32,779 bases of DNA from Desulfobulbaceae bacterium (lineage in GTDB: Bacteria; Desulfobacterota; Desulfobulbia; Desulfobulbales; Desulfobulbaceae), in NCBI GenBank assembly GCA_015493715.1, contig WGCP01000161.1:1-32779 (forward strand), read 5' to 3'. Position 1 is the first letter of the stretch. The number at the start of each line of letters is the position of its first letter. Positions 22,322-31,480 of this stretch are shown here, piece after piece. The position numbers and the translations under genes were made by a program. The notes under the pieces were generated by a model. That model made no database searches and was not told the origin of the DNA. It saw only the letters and a list, made by a program, of their open reading frames with translations.

Positions 22322-22401
22322 ATTCCAAAATAGATGTAAGGTTTTTATATCTATCTGAATAGTTGCAAATTATTGAACAATGGGCACCAGGAGAACAAGC
22401 C

Positions 22402-23505
22402 ATGGCAACAAAGAAGCAACAAAACTCCACCCGTGAAAATCCGCAGCAGGAGAAAGAGAAAAAAAAGAAAACCAAGGGAGCTGTCTCTTCTTCAAAAACA
22501 ACGACAACAGCCGTCAAACATTCGGGCAAAAAAGGCAAATCACCGGCCGGGAAACGGTCTGCCGGAAAGAAAAGCTCCAAAAATAAGTCGATCAAAAAAC
22601 GGGTCGACAATCCCGAAACAATTTTTGTCGGCAAAAAGGAGGTCGATCTCAAAAAACTGCTGAAGGAGTACAAACAGTTGGAAAAGGGCGAGCCTCGCCT
22701 CAATAAATATCAAAAGAAAGCGATGCGCCGCTACCACAGGGAAGAGGCGCTGAAGCCGTATCAGGCCGAATTGATCCGAATGCAGAAGTGTCTTGAAAAC
22801 AACAAGCATCGCATGATTATCCTCTTTGAAGGGCGTGACGCCGCCGGTAAAGGTGGTACCATCCGCCGGGTTACCCGGTATATGAACGAAAAACATTACC
22901 GGGTGGTCGCCCTGAGCAAACCGACGGATCATGAAAAAACCCAATGGTTTTTTCAACGCTATGTGGCCCAGTTTCCACGAGGCGGCGAGGTCGTCCTCTT
23001 TGATCGCAGTTGGTATAATCGGGCCGTTGTCGAACAGGTCTTTGGTTTCTGCACGCCGGAAGAATATAAAAATTTCATGCGCGGAGTTATAGGCTTTGAA
23101 AAAGACCTGGTTCGCCAGGGAACAACATTGGTCAAATTATACTTTTCCGTCACCAAGGAAGAACAGGCCAAGCGTTTTAAACGGCGTAAAACAGACCCCT
23201 TAAGACAATGGAAACTCTCGGAAATCGATGTCCAGGCCCAGGACCGCTGGGATGATTTTACCACCCAGAAATATGAAATGCTGAAAAAAACCCATACCAA
23301 CATTGCCCCCTGGACCATCATTCGCTCCAATAACAAACACCTTGCCCGCCTGAACGCAATGAAGGTCATCCTCAATGCCGTCCCCTATAAACGAGGAAAT
23401 CCCGATCTCAACTTTGTCCCTAATTCCAAGGTCGTCATATCCGGTGCCAGGGAAAAAGAACTCATGGATGCCCAGCGTATTAAACTCGGCAGTTTTGTCG
23501 GATAA
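22402..23505 (+). CDS. ppk2: Polyphosphate kinase 2 (PPK2) with a lysine-rich N-terminal tail
   Basis: 367 residues. The C-terminal 260 are a PPK2 kinase domain: Walker A 'FEGRDAAGKGGTI' (about 142-154), Walker B with lid arginine 'VVLFDRSWYNRAVVEQV' (about 202), then 'KLYFSVTKEEQAKRF', 'ALS'-type strand motifs and 'WTIIRSNNK', all characteristic of PPK2. The enzyme transfers phosphate between polyphosphate and nucleotides (NDP to NTP or NMP to NDP). The first 75 residues are extremely basic and low-complexity (repeated KK, SGKKGKS, KRSAGKK, KKSSKNKS), similar in style to histone H1 tails. AGGAG lies nine bases before ATG 22402. It is followed by a paralogue after 86 bases. The subclass (I, II or III) is not settled. 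Confidence 0.93.
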   Translation: MATKKQQNSTRENPQQEKEKKKKTKGAVSSSKTTTTAVKHSGKKGKSPAGKRSAGKKSSKNKSIKKRVDNPETIFVGKKEVDLKKLLKEYKQLEKGEPRLNKYQKKAMRRYHREEALKPYQAELIRMQKCLENNKHRMIILFEGRDAAGKGGTIRRVTRYMNEKHYRVVALSKPTDHEKTQWFFQRYVAQFPRGGEVVLFDRSWYNRAVVEQVFGFCTPEEYKNFMRGVIGFEKDLVRQGTTLVKLYFSVTKEEQAKRFKRRKTDPLRQWKLSEIDVQAQDRWDDFTTQKYEMLKKTHTNIAPWTIIRSNNKHLARLNAMKVILNAVPYKRGNPDLNFVPNSKVVISGAREKELMDAQRIKLGSFVG

Positions 23506-23591
23506 GCGCCTCCGATCCGCACGCAAATGAATGCGCCCCCTTCATCGAGACGGGAAACAGAAAAACAGAAAACTAGGAGAAGGAGTAGCCC

Positions 23592-24530
23592 ATGGCCGGC
23601 GGCAACAGTGTACGAAAGAACAAGGCTCACAAAAAGGCACAGAAATATCACCAGGGGAATACCGACAGTCTCCAGCTGCTGGAAGGCAGTCCCCTGAAAT
23701 ATAAAAAGATCAAGCCCGGTAAAGAAACACGCCGGCTATGGATCAAGAAGAGCCATCTCGAATATGAGATCGAGTTAAAAAAACTGCAGATCGAACTGAT
23801 GAAACTGCAGAACCATATGAAGGCAACCGGCATGCGGATTCTGGTTATTTTTGAAGGCAGGGACGCCGCAGGGAAAGGCGGAACCATCAAGAGAATCACC
23901 GCTTTTCTCAATCCCCGCCTGACCAAGGTTATTGCTCTGGCCAGACCAAGTGACACGGAAATGACCCAATGGTATTTTCAACGCTATGTGCCACACCTGC
24001 CGGCTGCAGGCGAACTGGTCCTCTTCGACCGCTCCTGGTACAATCGCGCTATGGTGGAACCGGTGATGAACTTCTGTACCGATGAACAGCACAAGCGCTT
24101 TTTAAAGGATGTGTCGCTGTTTGAAGAGATGCTGGTGAAGGACGGCATCAAATTGTTCAAATTTTATTTTTCCGTTTCCAAAGATGAGCAGGCAAAACGC
24201 TTTGCAGCACGAACAACCGACCTGCTCAAACAGTATAAACTCTCTCCGGTTGACAACCTCGCCCAGAAACTCTGGGACAAGTACAGTGTGAAAAAATTTC
24301 AAATGCTCAATGAATCCAACCGCACCCTCTCTCCCTGGACTATTATTCGCTCAGACGACAAAAAGAACGCCAGGATCAACTGCATGAAATATTTGCTCAG
24401 TAACCTGGAATATGAAGAAAAACTGCCGGTAACGGAACTCCGGCCGGACCCGAAAATCGTTAAATCCGGCATTGACGAGATTAAACATATGGAACAAAAT
24501 CTCTTCTCCCCAAGGGCGCTGCACGGATGA
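23592..24530 (+). CDS. ppk2: Polyphosphate kinase 2 (PPK2), second paralogue
   Basis: 312 residues with the same core as its neighbour: 'IFEGRDAAGKGGTIKRITAFLNPR' region (Walker A about 87-98), 'LVLFDRSWYNRAMVEPVMNFC' region, 'KFYFSVSKDEQAKRFAAR' and 'SPWTIIRSDDKKNAR'. The N-terminus is shorter, with basic residues but no long lysine-rich tail. Strong AGGAGAAGGAG signals precede the ATG. The two PPK2 proteins differ enough to be old paralogues and may differ in nucleotide preference or direction. Because the genes are spaced by only 86 bases on the same strand, they are likely co-transcribed. No terminator is obvious after the stop. Confidence 0.93.
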   Translation: MAGGNSVRKNKAHKKAQKYHQGNTDSLQLLEGSPLKYKKIKPGKETRRLWIKKSHLEYEIELKKLQIELMKLQNHMKATGMRILVIFEGRDAAGKGGTIKRITAFLNPRLTKVIALARPSDTEMTQWYFQRYVPHLPAAGELVLFDRSWYNRAMVEPVMNFCTDEQHKRFLKDVSLFEEMLVKDGIKLFKFYFSVSKDEQAKRFAARTTDLLKQYKLSPVDNLAQKLWDKYSVKKFQMLNESNRTLSPWTIIRSDDKKNARINCMKYLLSNLEYEEKLPVTELRPDPKIVKSGIDEIKHMEQNLFSPRALHG

Positions 24531-27663: not shown

Positions 27664-27749
27664 GGAGGGATGGCCGAGTGGTTTAAGGCGGCGGTCTTGA
27701 AAACCGTTGTACGAAAGTACCGTGGGTTCGAATCCTACTCCCTCCGCCA
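27664..27749 (+). tRNA. tRNA-Ser (anticodon TGA)
   Basis: GGAGGGA at the 5' end pairs with TCCCTCC at 27739-27745, followed by discriminator G and an encoded CCA. The D arm ('GGCCGAGTGGTTTAAGGC'), an anticodon loop CTTGAAA with TGA at 27698-27700, a long variable arm and GGTTCGAATCC are present: a class II serine tRNA reading UCA-type codons. Confidence 0.96.
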
Positions 27750-27761
27750 TAAAACGAACGC

Positions 27762-27854
27762 GGAGAGATGACCGAGCTGGCCGATGGTGCTCGCCTGCTA
27801 AGCGAGTGTGGGGGTTATACTCCACCGAGGGTTCGAATCCCTCTCTCTCCGCCA
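27762..27854 (+). tRNA. tRNA-Ser (anticodon GCT)
   Basis: GGAGAGA pairs with TCTCTCC (27844-27850), then G and CCA. The anticodon stem CTCGC/GCGAG encloses the loop CTGCTAA with GCT at 27797-27799. A long variable arm ('GTGGGGGTTATACTCCAC') and the GGTTCGAATCC T arm complete a class II serine tRNA for AGC/AGU codons. It follows the first tRNA by 12 bases and shares its promoter. Confidence 0.96.
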
Positions 27855-27883: not shown

Positions 27884-28348
27884 TTAATACCCCCAGAGCA
27901 GGCTGCGTTTCACCCAGCCGGAGACTCCTTTCCGGTGGTGAACCTTCACCCAACCGTTTTTCTTTTTCAGTGTTTGAAAGACCACGCCGTAATGGGCCTT
28001 GGCCACAATCCTGCTTCTCGTTCCCGGGCCACTGCGCACATTGATTCGTTTTCTCGACTTTCGGTGAACCTTGACAATCATATGCGGCACCCTATTGACG
28101 ACGTTTTTATTGACCCAGCCAATGGTCCCTTCAAAATCCTGTACCCTGATCCATCCGCCCTTCCTTTTCAAAACCTTCAAGGGAAACCCCGAGCCTAACT
28201 TCCAGAGGATCTTATAGCGAGTCCCGGGACCGGACCGCATATTAATATCATTGCCGGCGATGGAAACCATCCCGGCAAGAGCCGCCGAAGCCTGGAATGC
28301 GCAAACAACAAACAACAGAACAACAAGAAATGATTTACATGTTTTCAT
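27884..28348 (-). CDS. Exported protein with two bacterial SH3 domains
   Basis: 154 residues. A signal peptide (to about residue 25, 'SAALAG') is followed by two SH3b domains, each marked by 'INMRSGPGTRYKILWKL' / 'INVRSGPGTRSRIVAKA' and a closing 'GWVNKNVV' / 'GWVKRSLLW'. SH3b domains bind cell-wall peptides or other ligands; alone like this the protein is probably a periplasmic or envelope-binding factor, very basic (many KR). It lies 17 bases after the polyferredoxin gene on the same strand, with no clear Shine-Dalgarno. It is the last gene of the run beginning at parA, ending 29 bases from the oppositely oriented tRNA genes, with no terminator seen. Confidence 0.85.
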   Translation of the reverse strand: MKTCKSFLVVLLFVVCAFQASAALAGMVSIAGNDINMRSGPGTRYKILWKLGSGFPLKVLKRKGGWIRVQDFEGTIGWVNKNVVNRVPHMIVKVHRKSRKRINVRSGPGTRSRIVAKAHYGVVFQTLKKKNGWVKVHHRKGVSGWVKRSLLWGY

Positions 28349-28365
28349 AGATAAAAATCGGATCG

Positions 28366-29259
28366 CTATTGGTGAGAGGTAACCGCAGGTCTCTTCCCTG
28401 GTTGTCCAAGACGGTAACCCGCTACGTTTACATGAATGGCATCAAAACGGCATGCCTCGGTCATGCATTTCATACAATTAATACATTCTCCGCTACCCGG
28501 AGTTTCGTTGAAATGAATTTCAACAGGACATACCTTATGACAGGCCTTGCAATTTGTACAGGCCTCTTTATCCAAATCCAATTTTACCAGACTAATCTTG
28601 TTAAAAAGAGCATAAAATGCGCCAAGCGGGCAAATCGTTCGGCAAAATGGCCTCGATGCGACCACACTCCAAACGATAACACCTATCAAAATGCAGATCT
28701 TGTTCAGGTAAAGAAATCCAAGGGTTGTTCGCAAATCAGGCACCAAAAGTACCATAGGGATACCGGCTTCCAGGGTCCCTGCAGGACAGACATATTTACA
28801 GAACCATGGTTTCCCCAGCCCGAACTGGTCGACAAAAACAAGCGGCAAAACGATGACAAAGAGTAGAAGAAACCCATACTTACACCAGTTAAGTAAAGGC
28901 GGAATTGAATATTTTTTGGAAGGAATTTTATGCAATAATTCCTGTATAAAACCAAAGGGACAGGCCCAGCCGCAGATAAAGCGACCAAAGCTCGCCCCCA
29001 ACAAGCCCATGCCGCCTAGAACAAAGCTCCCTAAATAATAGTGTCCGGTCTGCAGAGAAAAACGCACACCGAGCAATAATTGCTGCAAACTCCCTATAGG
29101 ACAGTACGTTGTTGCTGCCGGGCATGAATAACAGTTCAAGCCGGGCGAACAGATGACTTTTAAGGGCCCCTGATATAAATTGCCCGTGATAGGGAATCCC
29201 CAAAATCCATTGATCAGAAATATCCATACCGCTTGAATCAGTTTTCGTATCGTCTGCAT
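28366..29259 (-). CDS. Membrane polyferredoxin (NapH/YccM-like 4Fe-4S protein)
   Basis: 297 residues. Membrane helices alternate with cysteine motifs: 'CSPGLNCYSCPAATTYCPIG' (near 37), 'CGWACPFGF' (near 95), 'CKYVCPAGT' (near 153) and 'CRTICPLGAFY' (near 206), the C-x3-CP pairs of the NapH/NosR/RnfB-like family. It ends with two 4Fe-4S ferredoxin-type clusters, 'CTNCKACHKVCP' and 'CINCMKCMTEACRF'. It moves electrons across or along the inner membrane between quinol or a reductase and an unknown partner; no catalytic subunit is encoded next to it. The start lies 3 bases after the CxxC micro-protein gene. Confidence 0.88.
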   Translation of the reverse strand: MQTIRKLIQAVWIFLINGFWGFPITGNLYQGPLKVICSPGLNCYSCPAATTYCPIGSLQQLLLGVRFSLQTGHYYLGSFVLGGMGLLGASFGRFICGWACPFGFIQELLHKIPSKKYSIPPLLNWCKYGFLLLFVIVLPLVFVDQFGLGKPWFCKYVCPAGTLEAGIPMVLLVPDLRTTLGFLYLNKICILIGVIVWSVVASRPFCRTICPLGAFYALFNKISLVKLDLDKEACTNCKACHKVCPVEIHFNETPGSGECINCMKCMTEACRFDAIHVNVAGYRLGQPGKRPAVTSHQ

Positions 29260-29262
29260 CCC

Positions 29263-29406
29263 CTACCCTATCCCTATACATGAAAGGCAAATGGATTTAG
29301 CCTGTTCAAGAACCCGTGTCGGCTCGCCCAAAGATACGCCAACCAACCAGAGAAGAAGAAAAAATCCCAAAAGAATAAAGGGCGTTTTTCGTAACTTTCC
29401 ATTCAT
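29263..29406 (-). CDS. CxxC micro-protein (CD1871A family), 47 residues
   Basis: A 47-residue frame, MNGKLRKTPF.. to ..SICLSCIGIG, with one membrane helix (about 9-25) and a C-terminal 'ICLSCIGIG'. That ending, C-x2-C-IGIG after a transmembrane segment, is the signature of the CD1871A family, whose role is unknown. It starts with an excellent GGAGGAAA seven bases upstream, at an ATGA overlap with the thiamine-binding gene, and ends 3 bases before the polyferredoxin start, so it is very unlikely to be spurious. Families like this often sit next to 4Fe-4S membrane proteins; here it may hand electrons or a thiol to the polyferredoxin. Both cysteines would be membrane-proximal. Confidence 0.85.
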   Translation of the reverse strand: MNGKLRKTPFILLGFFLLLWLVGVSLGEPTRVLEQAKSICLSCIGIG

Positions 29407-29711
29407 GATTTTCCTCCAAGGCGTGTCTGAACGGCACGTCGCTTGTCTCCGATGGCCTGCTCTTTATCGCGCCGGTCATCGAGCATGATATTCGTTACCA
29501 CCCGCTGTGCGCCGCAGGAAAATGGATATTCATGGATATCCGCCGCTAGCTGTAACAGTTCCGCTACCGTCCCATGAATAACCGTTCCCATGTCAGCCAG
29601 TTCGTAGGTGCATCCTCTCTCCTGCAGTAATTTCTGCACACCGGCCACATGGTCACCAACACTGGTAGAGTCGGTACCGACAGGGATTATTGTTATCTGC
29701 ATCAACGCCAT
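29403..29711 (-). CDS. MTH1187-family thiamine-binding protein
   Basis: 102 residues, one ferredoxin-like fold of the MTH1187/YkoF group (formerly DUF77): 'MQITIIPVGTDSTSVGDHVAG' at the start, 'YELADMGTVIHGTVAELLQL' in the middle and 'RVVTNIMLDDRRDKEQ' towards the end. Members bind thiamine or a related pyrimidine; there is no sign of a catalytic site. It starts one base after the parB stop with GGAGGGGAGGGG (in the end of parB) as ribosome binding site, and its stop overlaps the next start. Its placement directly behind parB indicates co-transcription. Confidence 0.88.
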   Translation of the reverse strand: MALMQITIIPVGTDSTSVGDHVAGVQKLLQERGCTYELADMGTVIHGTVAELLQLAADIHEYPFSCGAQRVVTNIMLDDRRDKEQAIGDKRRAVQTRLGGKS

Positions 29712-29712
29712 G

Positions 29713-30606
29713 CTACCCCTCCCCTCCGCTCATCGTCAACAAATTGACCAGCCTATCGAGATCGTCAGCAGAGTAGTAGTCAATTTCAAGGCGGCCGCGG
29801 CCTCCGTTTTGCTGAATCCTGACCTTGGTATTGAAGGTATTAGTCAGTTGATTGGTAATGGCCTTACAGTAAGAGGCAGGGAGGTCGGTACGCTTGCTTT
29901 GTACATCCTGTTGTTTTTTTCTTTTAGGAGGCTTTCGCCGCCCTGCCCTGCATAACTGTTCCGTCTGTCGTACCGAAAGCTTATCACTGACAATCCTGTC
30001 CCTTATTTCAAGCATGGCCTCCTGGTCTCCGTGCAGGCGCAAAAGCACCCTGGCATGGCCCTCGCTCATGCGCTGTTCAATCACATCATCCCGTATGGGC
30101 TCCGGCAGTTTTAACAGACGAAGAGTATTGGTTATGGTTGATCGCTTTTTTCCTACCTTATCGGCGACCTCCTCCTGGGTTAGATTAAACTCTTCAATCA
30201 GGCGGGCATAGGCCACCGCCTCCTCTATAGCATTTAAATCATGCCGCTGAATATTTTCAATAAGCGCCAGTTCCAGCCGTTCATTTTTCGAGGTCGCATC
30301 CATGACGACCACTGGTACCTCATCCTTTTGGGCCATTTTTGCGGCACGCAATCGCCGTTCACCGGCTATGAGATGATACCGGTTTCCCTGCGCACGTGTA
30401 ACCAGGAGGGGCTGAATAACACCCCGCTGGCGAATAGACTCGGACAGCTCCTGCAACCTTTCCGGATCAAAATAGCTTCGCGGTTGTTGCGGATTTGGCT
30501 CTATCCTATCAATATCACACATAAAAAACTTTTCTTCGGCGTCATTCTCCAGGTCATCCGGCAATAACGCGCCTACGCCTCTGCCCAATACGCTCTTTCC
30601 TGCCAT
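29713..30606 (-). CDS. parB: Chromosome-partitioning protein ParB (Spo0J)
   Basis: 297 residues. The N-terminal CTPase domain has 'DIDRIEPNPQQPR', 'GVIQPLLVTR', 'HLIAGERRLRAAK' (box II) and 'LIENIQRHDLNAIEEA'. The HTH follows ('NLTQEEVADKVGKKRSTITNTLRLLKLP', about 139-166), and a C-terminal dimerisation part ends the protein. ParB loads at parS, spreads as a CTP-dependent clamp and works with ParA to segregate the chromosome. It lies 5 bases after parA. A matching parS is at 31465-31480. Confidence 0.96.
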   Translation of the reverse strand: MAGKSVLGRGVGALLPDDLENDAEEKFFMCDIDRIEPNPQQPRSYFDPERLQELSESIRQRGVIQPLLVTRAQGNRYHLIAGERRLRAAKMAQKDEVPVVVMDATSKNERLELALIENIQRHDLNAIEEAVAYARLIEEFNLTQEEVADKVGKKRSTITNTLRLLKLPEPIRDDVIEQRMSEGHARVLLRLHGDQEAMLEIRDRIVSDKLSVRQTEQLCRAGRRKPPKRKKQQDVQSKRTDLPASYCKAITNQLTNTFNTKVRIQQNGGRGRLEIDYYSADDLDRLVNLLTMSGGEG

Positions 30607-30611
30607 TTTTT

Positions 30612-31391
30612 TTACACCTTTGCCCTACGAAGGAATTCATTGCCAAACTTTACATACGCCTTGGCACCCGTACAATTTTTATCATACTCAAGTATTGTCT
30701 TGCCATGACTCGGGCTTTCGCTTAATCGCACATTTCTCGGAATGACCGTTTTATAAACCTGATCCCCAAAATGGCCTCTAATTTCATCAGCCACCAAATG
30801 AGTCAATCGATTTCGCCGATCATACATAGTCAGCAACAATCCCTCTATGTAAAGTCCCTGGTTTAGCGTCTTTTTAACCCTGCGAACGGTGTTAACAAGA
30901 AGGGCTAGTCCTTCAAGGGCAAAATATTCACATTGCAATGGGATTAGGACCGAATCAGCGGCGGTCAAGCCGTTAATGGTCAGCAGCCCTAGAGAAGGAG
31001 GACAATCAATAATGATATATTGAAACTGGTCCAGCACCGAATGCAAAATTGAACGCAGCTTTTTTTCCCGGTCTTCCATGGAAATCAACTCGACCTCAAC
31101 ACCGACAAGGTCAATGGAAGCGGGGAGGATGCTGAGATTTTTTAAATTTGTCGCCTGAACACAGTCGGCCGCATCACTTCCCCCCGTATAACAACGATAG
31201 ATATTTTTTTCTTCACTGGTTTGAAACATACCAACGCCGCTGGATACATTACCCTGTGGGTCTGAATCAACAAGCAGTACCTTCTTCCTCTTGGACGCCA
31301 GCACCGCCGCGAGATTTAACGCGGTCGTTGTCTTTCCTACTCCGCCCTTCTGGTTCGCCAGAACAACTACCTTGGCCTTCATTCTTTTCAT
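30612..31391 (-). CDS. parA: Chromosome-partitioning ATPase ParA (Soj)
   Basis: 259 residues. Deviant Walker A 'KGGVGKTT' (15-22) with the signature lysine, 'LLVDSDPQGN' near 40, and Walker B 'QYIIIDCPPSLGLLT' near 130 define the chromosomal ParA/Soj type without an N-terminal HTH. It moves ParB-parS complexes over the nucleoid. Two starts are possible, ATG 31391 (MKRMKAKV) and ATG 31382 (MKAKV); neither has a strong ribosome binding site. A -10-like TATACT (31432-31427, minus strand) lies upstream without a good -35. Confidence 0.96.
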   Translation of the reverse strand: MKRMKAKVVVLANQKGGVGKTTTALNLAAVLASKRKKVLLVDSDPQGNVSSGVGMFQTSEEKNIYRCYTGGSDAADCVQATNLKNLSILPASIDLVGVEVELISMEDREKKLRSILHSVLDQFQYIIIDCPPSLGLLTINGLTAADSVLIPLQCEYFALEGLALLVNTVRRVKKTLNQGLYIEGLLLTMYDRRNRLTHLVADEIRGHFGDQVYKTVIPRNVRLSESPSHGKTILEYDKNCTGAKAYVKFGNEFLRRAKV

Positions 31392-31464: not shown

Positions 31465-31480
31465 TGTTTCACGTGAAACA
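31465..31480. promoter_or_regulatory. parS centromere site
   Basis: TGTTTCACGTGAAACA is an exact match to the 16-bp parS consensus bound by chromosomal ParB. It lies between parA and nadB, in the 130-base divergent gap, as in many bacteria where parS sites cluster near parAB and the origin. It may also let ParB influence the parA promoter. Confidence 0.97.

Follow-up and report, generated by a model that had tools for sequence, protein, structure and literature searches.

A (C/U)xxC miniprotein and a NapH-like iron-sulfur protein as a candidate transmembrane thiol-redox relay beside parAB-parS in a Desulfobulbaceae bacterium

Background

The contig WGCP01000161.1 of a Desulfobulbaceae bacterium (GCA_015493715.1), which we call the window in its whole length of 32,779 nt, carries on its minus strand a run of six genes in the order parA, parB, MTH1187, CxxC, NapH-like and SH3b. 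We have found that the real unit in this run is the pair formed by a CxxC miniprotein, or its UxxC form in which selenocysteine (U) would replace the first cysteine, and a NapH-like iron-sulfur (Fe-S) membrane protein, usually joined by a TlpA-like thioredoxin, and that parAB is beside the point. Our preferred reading, to which we give a probability of roughly 0.58, is that the two proteins of this core form a transmembrane thiol-redox relay, wired by Fe-S clusters, which passes electrons outward to TlpA/ResA-type proteins, parAB-parS being incidental. We see about even odds for the broader proposition that the pair represents a new transmembrane thiol-reducing system widespread in anaerobes, with the UxxC form as an undescribed selenoprotein family. 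An original prediction, made from the window alone, had given the gaps between the six genes as 5, 1, -4, 3 and 17 bases, which the coordinates of the open reading frames bear out, and its family assignments agree with the profile scores given below; it overlooked the CxxC-NapH core with its usual TlpA, the alternation of the partner genes and the UxxC forms.

The core pair

The miniprotein of the window (29263-29406, minus strand; 47 aa) is of the CD1871A type and consists of a basic N-terminus, one transmembrane helix and a C-terminal EPTRVLEQAKSICLSCIGIG directly followed by the stop codon, the codons of Cys40 and Cys43 lying at 29287-29289 and 29278-29280, respectively. It passes the cut-off of the NCBIfam profile NF040920 only marginally (32.7 bits, cut-off 32), and its alignment and gene context are concordant with the assignment. 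The adjoining gene (28366-29259, minus strand) encodes a NapH-like protein of 297 aa, which matches PF12801 with 75.9 bits (cut-off 22) and PF00037 with 28.0 bits (cut-off 21.1).

When named genomes were scanned with the NapH alignment alone, 80 loci were found in Desulfobacterota-type bacteria, Clostridia, Aminicenantes, Poribacteria and others, and in 79 of them a CxxC or UxxC miniprotein adjoins the NapH-like gene; at the 80th (L152) the motif is present with three extra C-terminal residues. The gap between the two genes has a median of 2.5 bases, and the miniprotein nearly always ends in (C/U)xxC-(I/V/M)-G-(I/L/V)-G. Over 149 members, its net charge is +3.1 on the N-terminal side of the helix and -0.5 on the C-terminal side; from this bias and the basic N-terminus a C-out miniprotein is predicted, with the (C/U)xxC motif on the extracytoplasmic side.

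The window's NapH-like protein shares with the NapH/NosR/PceC-type proteins (TIGR02163 and the NapH-like systems of PMC8238504) the PF12801 Fer4_5 domain, the CX3CP motifs and a C-terminal 2x[4Fe-4S] domain; however, it scores 56.8 vs 213 bits with TIGR02163 and 49.7 vs 234 bits with NF007013, and is thus NapH-like and not NapH. Its family further differs from these proteins in having an additional CX3CP motif, an N-terminal C-x5-C-x2-C-x6-C loop and a near-obligate CxxC partner, and no FMN-binding partner was seen. In the window the family-specific loop comprises C37, C43, C46 and C53, the three CX3CP motifs C96/C100, C154/C158 and C206/C210, and the ferredoxin domain C234-C270, and most of these cysteines are invariant or nearly so in two alignments. 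By the positive-inside rule, C37/C43/C46/C53 and C158 among the invariant or near-invariant residues are predicted to lie outside, and C96/C100, C206/C210 and the ferredoxin cysteines inside, the side of the ferredoxin domain being the most basic part of the protein. An AlphaFold2 model (predicted local distance difference test 85, predicted template modelling score 0.82) is confident save for the C37-C53 loop. The protein is a predicted electron conduit.

Predicted selenocysteine forms

Reading of loci that lack a recognised CxxC gene revealed a UGA precisely at the position of the first cysteine in L098, L173 (Poribacteria) and L174 and in a clostridium (L207). We have searched with the DNA pattern TGA-N6-TGYATHGGNDTNGGNTRR, which has UGA for the first cysteine of CxxCIG(I/V)G and ends at the stop codon. 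It occurs in 35 of 395 genomes of the window's phylum, and the reversed pattern, used as a control, in none. In Clostridia four of 391 genomes match, one of them with protein context; the other three matches were taken as chance since they lack a transmembrane context. NapH adjoins 18 of the 20 phylum loci that were fetched, and a clear TlpA-like protein is encoded at nine. The UxxC miniproteins thus collected (L227-L246, L207, L173, L174 and L098) include several that fall below the NF040920 cut-off.

A hairpin resembling a selenocysteine insertion sequence (SECIS), with at least six contiguous pairs around a GGGU loop, follows 21 bases after the UGA in 21 of 22 distinct UGA loci, versus three of 154 cysteine loci, the search pattern fixing only the first two bases of its 3' arm. 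Over 23 sequences 90.7% of the cells are paired, four of the seven pairs have changed on both sides, and every slid register pairs much less. Rfam, applied to the UGA loci at its gathering threshold, returned no match. SelB scores above its cut-off in all three UGA genomes tested, and likewise in the window's genome. The related loci hence show what is looked for in a selenoprotein gene, namely an in-frame UGA, a SECIS-like hairpin and, in three genomes, SelB. Sequencing errors or pseudogenes were rejected as an explanation, as the same codon recurs in many genomes of several phyla, NapH is intact alongside and the hairpin covaries.

Known selenoproteins with a UxxC motif include a UGC-containing TlpA, a thiol:disulfide interchange protein and TsoA with its LULAXC motif (PMC13188914, Table 1). 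As thiol redox proteins whose CxxC-like motif holds a selenocysteine they resemble the miniprotein, whereas the miniprotein has one helix, no thioredoxin fold and its motif at the extreme C-terminus. TsoA itself was rejected for the UGA loci, since in NCBIfam the UxxC peptides match only NF040920. That family is curated with CXXC only, the UxxC forms and the tie to NapH and TlpA appear in no source searched, and CD1871A went without mention in our literature search. The UxxC miniprotein is likewise missing from an inventory of 2026 that lists 119 families of prokaryotic selenoproteins (PMC13188914, Table 1). Judged from its gene, the UxxC miniprotein is apparently a selenoprotein form undescribed in the sources searched. 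At about 45 residues it would be a very small selenoprotein and easily overlooked, as gene callers cut at the UGA and leave a truncated or missing open reading frame. The replacement of cysteine by selenocysteine is a mark of a redox-active residue, and the exchange at one of the two CxxC cysteines points strongly to catalytic thiol chemistry.

In the window the miniprotein gene encodes the cysteine form, with TGC at Cys40 and no in-frame UGA at the redox position. Several AhpC/TSA-type proteins are encoded in the same genome, two of them with an in-frame TGA (L252, G000:C389:12687-13082; L253, G000:C375:3-302). These two genes, together with the SelB at G000:C77, make it probable that the organism produces selenoproteins.

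Partner genes

The commonest partner of the pair is a TlpA/ResA-type extracytoplasmic thioredoxin, encoded on the same strand no more than 2.6 kb away at 52 of the 80 NapH-found loci. At L037, L044, L047 and L113 the order is DsbB-DsbA-TlpA-CxxC-NapH. On the NapH tree, the presence of MTH1187 changes 11 times, at least five of which are forced by well-supported branches, and that of TlpA 15 times, with at least nine so forced; the partners therefore alternate. Two genomes carry two copies of the module with different partners: in G056, L068 stands with parAB-MTH1187 and L047 with DsbB-DsbA-TlpA, and in G053, L037 has DsbB-DsbA-TlpA and L051 none of these partners. At L179 and L191, genes that by eye resemble TatB and TatC lie directly upstream of CxxC-NapH.

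Relation to DsbD/CcdA

The proposed task of the module, to bring reducing power across the membrane to thioredoxins of the TlpA/ResA/CcmG type, is that of DsbD/CcdA/ScsB (PF02683). In contrast to these proteins, the module has Fe-S clusters and a separate one-helix (C/U)xxC protein instead of a membrane core built on a cysteine pair; no sequence relation was found, and none of the six window proteins matches the PF02683 DsbD transmembrane domain in Pfam. As far as sequence tells, the module is analogous to DsbD/CcdA and not homologous.

CcdA/DsbD is encoded in 19 of 29 module-bearing genomes of the phylum versus 103 of 119 others (p=0.013), and in eight of 25 versus 66 of 123 in Clostridia (p=0.078); the combined Mantel-Haenszel odds ratio is 0.35 (p=0.0024), all three tests ignoring phylogeny. 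The module is thus moderately anti-correlated with DsbD/CcdA, which suggests overlapping roles, and from this anti-association and the gene context we infer a DsbD-like function. Conversely, DsbD/CcdA is absent from ten of the 29 module-bearing genomes in the phylum (16 of 119 others) and 17 of the 25 in Clostridia (57 of 123 others). How such anaerobes reduce thiol proteins outside the membrane is a gap that a compact Fe-S relay would fill.

Proposed electron relay and its alternatives

If the motif and its thioredoxin-fold partners are placed outside, and the ferredoxin domain at the opposite end of the NapH-like protein, the simplest scheme would lead low-potential electrons from the cytosol through the Fe-S sites of that protein to the miniprotein tail and on to TlpA/ResA. 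What we observe is the gene order, the pairing, the alternation of partners and the UGA forms with their hairpin; the direction of flow, acceptor and membrane topology, as well as the roles of MTH1187 and the SH3 protein, are what we infer. Reduced ferredoxin, or a similar donor in the cytosol, would feed the C-terminal 2x[4Fe-4S] domain of the NapH-like protein, and the electrons would traverse the membrane via its cysteine-ligated sites to reach the extracytoplasmic (C/U)xxC tail. The miniprotein would then act as a dithiol or selenol-thiol shuttle to a TlpA/ResA-type thioredoxin-fold protein, so that iron-sulfur wiring would do the job for which DsbD/CcdA uses a membrane channel with a cysteine pair. 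The six-gene run has, in the lineage of the window, MTH1187 and an exported SH3 protein where other loci have TlpA, and the gene of the thioredoxin acceptor would lie at another place in the genome; this acceptor could be the thioredoxin next to CcdA or any of the several AhpC/TSA-type proteins. MTH1187 would probably be a sensor of a small ligand, or a modulator, tied to the oxidative state, and parAB-parS would merely happen to precede the unit in the window's family.

Several points weigh against this relay. The six-gene run of the window contains no thioredoxin gene, and in its genome a CcdA-like protein is encoded next to a thioredoxin (L214). Nor is the module just a substitute for CcdA, since 19 of 29 positive phylum genomes have CcdA/DsbD, and the anti-association leaves phylogeny out of account. 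MTH1187 is without an explained part in the relay. A fold search of the PDB with the AlphaFold2 model gave no match at E<=0.001, the best partial one being to ferredoxin domains, so the membrane part is without a solved counterpart; the NapH profile, when run against PDB sequences, likewise matched ferredoxin domains only. The literature search found no biochemistry or genetics of the miniprotein/NapH-like family.

The flow could also run the other way, the miniprotein taking electrons from extracytoplasmic thiols such as a DsbA-like oxidant and NapH passing them to the menaquinone pool or to cytosolic acceptors, as an anaerobic counterpart of DsbB/VKOR. The described NapH relatives are held to interact with quinol (PMC8238504), and DsbA-like proteins are encoded in the same cluster at the four loci with the DsbB-DsbA-TlpA order; at these loci, however, DsbB is usually encoded wherever DsbA is. 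Moreover, the commonest partner is of the TlpA/ResA type, whose characterised members are reductants, and the C-terminal ferredoxin domain fits a low-potential donor. We regard such a thiol-oxidising flow towards the quinones as unlikely, and count the chance that remains to it against the outward relay.

Somewhat less probable still is that the miniprotein serves as an assembly or metallation factor for NapH, its CxxC donating or carrying an Fe-S cluster or metal, in a unit that feeds a respiratory or other reductase, with the thioredoxins incidental. Such a factor would fit the near-universal 1:1 pairing with NapH across the short median gap, and the invariant GIG C-terminus resembles a docking tail. 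On the other hand, TlpA recurs at 52 of the 80 loci, and the exchange of cysteine for selenocysteine at one position only favours thiol exchange over structural or metal ligation, as the proposed relay would have it.

The parAB-parS locus

The window's parA (30612-31391, minus strand; AAA_31, 217 bits) and parB (29713-30606, minus strand) lead the six-gene run. ParB is of the chromosomal type, with N-terminal, helix-turn-helix and C-terminal domains (PF02195/PF17762/PF23552; TIGR00180, 180 bits, cut-off 58). A parS site, the perfect palindrome TGTTTCACGTGAAACA (31465-31480, plus strand), lies between parA and the divergent nadB; it has no mismatch, and shuffled sequences average 0.10 matches even with three mismatches allowed. 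This is therefore an ordinary chromosomal ParABS locus.

Loci found by an NF040920 search of 57 relatives were read, and MTH1187-CxxC-NapH, in some cases followed by SH3, was found throughout the order. Among 40 order-level loci including the window, with neighbours counted within 2.6 kb, 32 have the SH3 gene, which is a conserved downstream neighbour, 22 MTH1187, 16 parB, 14 PilZ genes and three TlpA. The original prediction had proposed a coupling of chromosome segregation to the redox module; yet parAB precedes the unit only in most of the window's family and in a few close, Desulfocapsaceae-like neighbours (L068, L104, L108), and three members of that family (L052, L056, L059) retain the unit beside nadB without parAB there. 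Elsewhere its place is taken by PilZ genes, TlpA, DsbB-DsbA-TlpA or TatB/TatC-like genes. The linkage is therefore lineage synteny and no functional rule. A partition system co-expressed with the redox module and tied to the redox state would suit the tight spacing in the window and the order kept in its family and those three neighbours, but most unit-bearing relatives lack parAB at that place, in some of them the gap that follows parB is wide (more than 250 bases at L018 and L020), and parS and parAB look like those of any chromosome; we consider it very improbable, and rejected it since the synteny is restricted to one clade.

In seven loci from other families of the order (L032, L033, L035, L036, L041, L046 and L049), parAB is replaced upstream of MTH1187-CxxC-NapH by a PilZ-type gene, or two of them, together with an uncharacterised cluster c11 protein. 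On the NapH tree, Desulfobulbus elongatus (L106) clusters with G023, a member of the window's family, with full support, which points to a Desulfobulbaceae-like family.

MTH1187 as a third partner

The MTH1187 gene (29403-29711, minus strand; 102 aa) encodes a member of the MTH1187/TM0486/YqgV family (TIGR00106, 87.2 bits, cut-off 54.7; PF01910, 95 bits) that is cytosolic, no signal sequence being seen, and has 1lxn, 1lxj and 2eky as relatives in the PDB. Unlike the family as known, it sits with a membrane redox pair, and thiamine binding is a putative property assigned by family. The original prediction had taken MTH1187, CxxC and polyferredoxin as an undescribed redox unit. The trio does recur without parAB (e.g. 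L032-L036, L041, L046, L049, L180, L181 and L184-L186) and is not just scattered, but its invariant part is CxxC-NapH, MTH1187 being one of several alternating partners; as a core member it was rejected, being present at only seven of the 80 NapH-found loci. CD1871A and PF01910 occur together in 25 genomes of the phylum sample, as neighbouring genes in nine (G000, G037, G072/G109/G144/G172, G120, G154 and G181, spanning six families) and apart in 16, and random placement within 1 kb predicts about 0.02 adjacencies. The trio is therefore real, though not universal, and MTH1187 is a real but alternative third partner.

That the membrane proteins assist in the uptake, reduction or delivery of thiamine, or of its pyrimidine, redox being secondary, would accord with the family name of MTH1187, but the core pair usually lacks MTH1187, which in genomes with both mostly lies elsewhere, and the chance of such a thiamine-handling unit is very slight. 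The literature search found no mention of MTH1187 together with thiamine binding. At L208-L212, in five genomes that belong to one family and form a single clade, MTH1187 is divergent to ccdA, a hint that it accompanies thiol-redox membrane proteins more generally.

Other features of the window

The last gene of the run (27884-28348, minus strand) encodes an exported protein of 154 aa with two bacterial SH3 domains (TIGR04211, 78 bits, cut-off 65) and cysteines only within its signal peptide. A scan for consensus promoters and terminators found sites barely more numerous than in shuffled sequences. Two tandem tRNA-Ser genes (tga, gct; 27664-27854, plus strand) lie just downstream of the SH3 gene and converge with the six-gene run. 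Farther away, at 22363-24530 on the plus strand, are two consecutive genes that by eye resemble polyphosphate kinase 2 paralogues.

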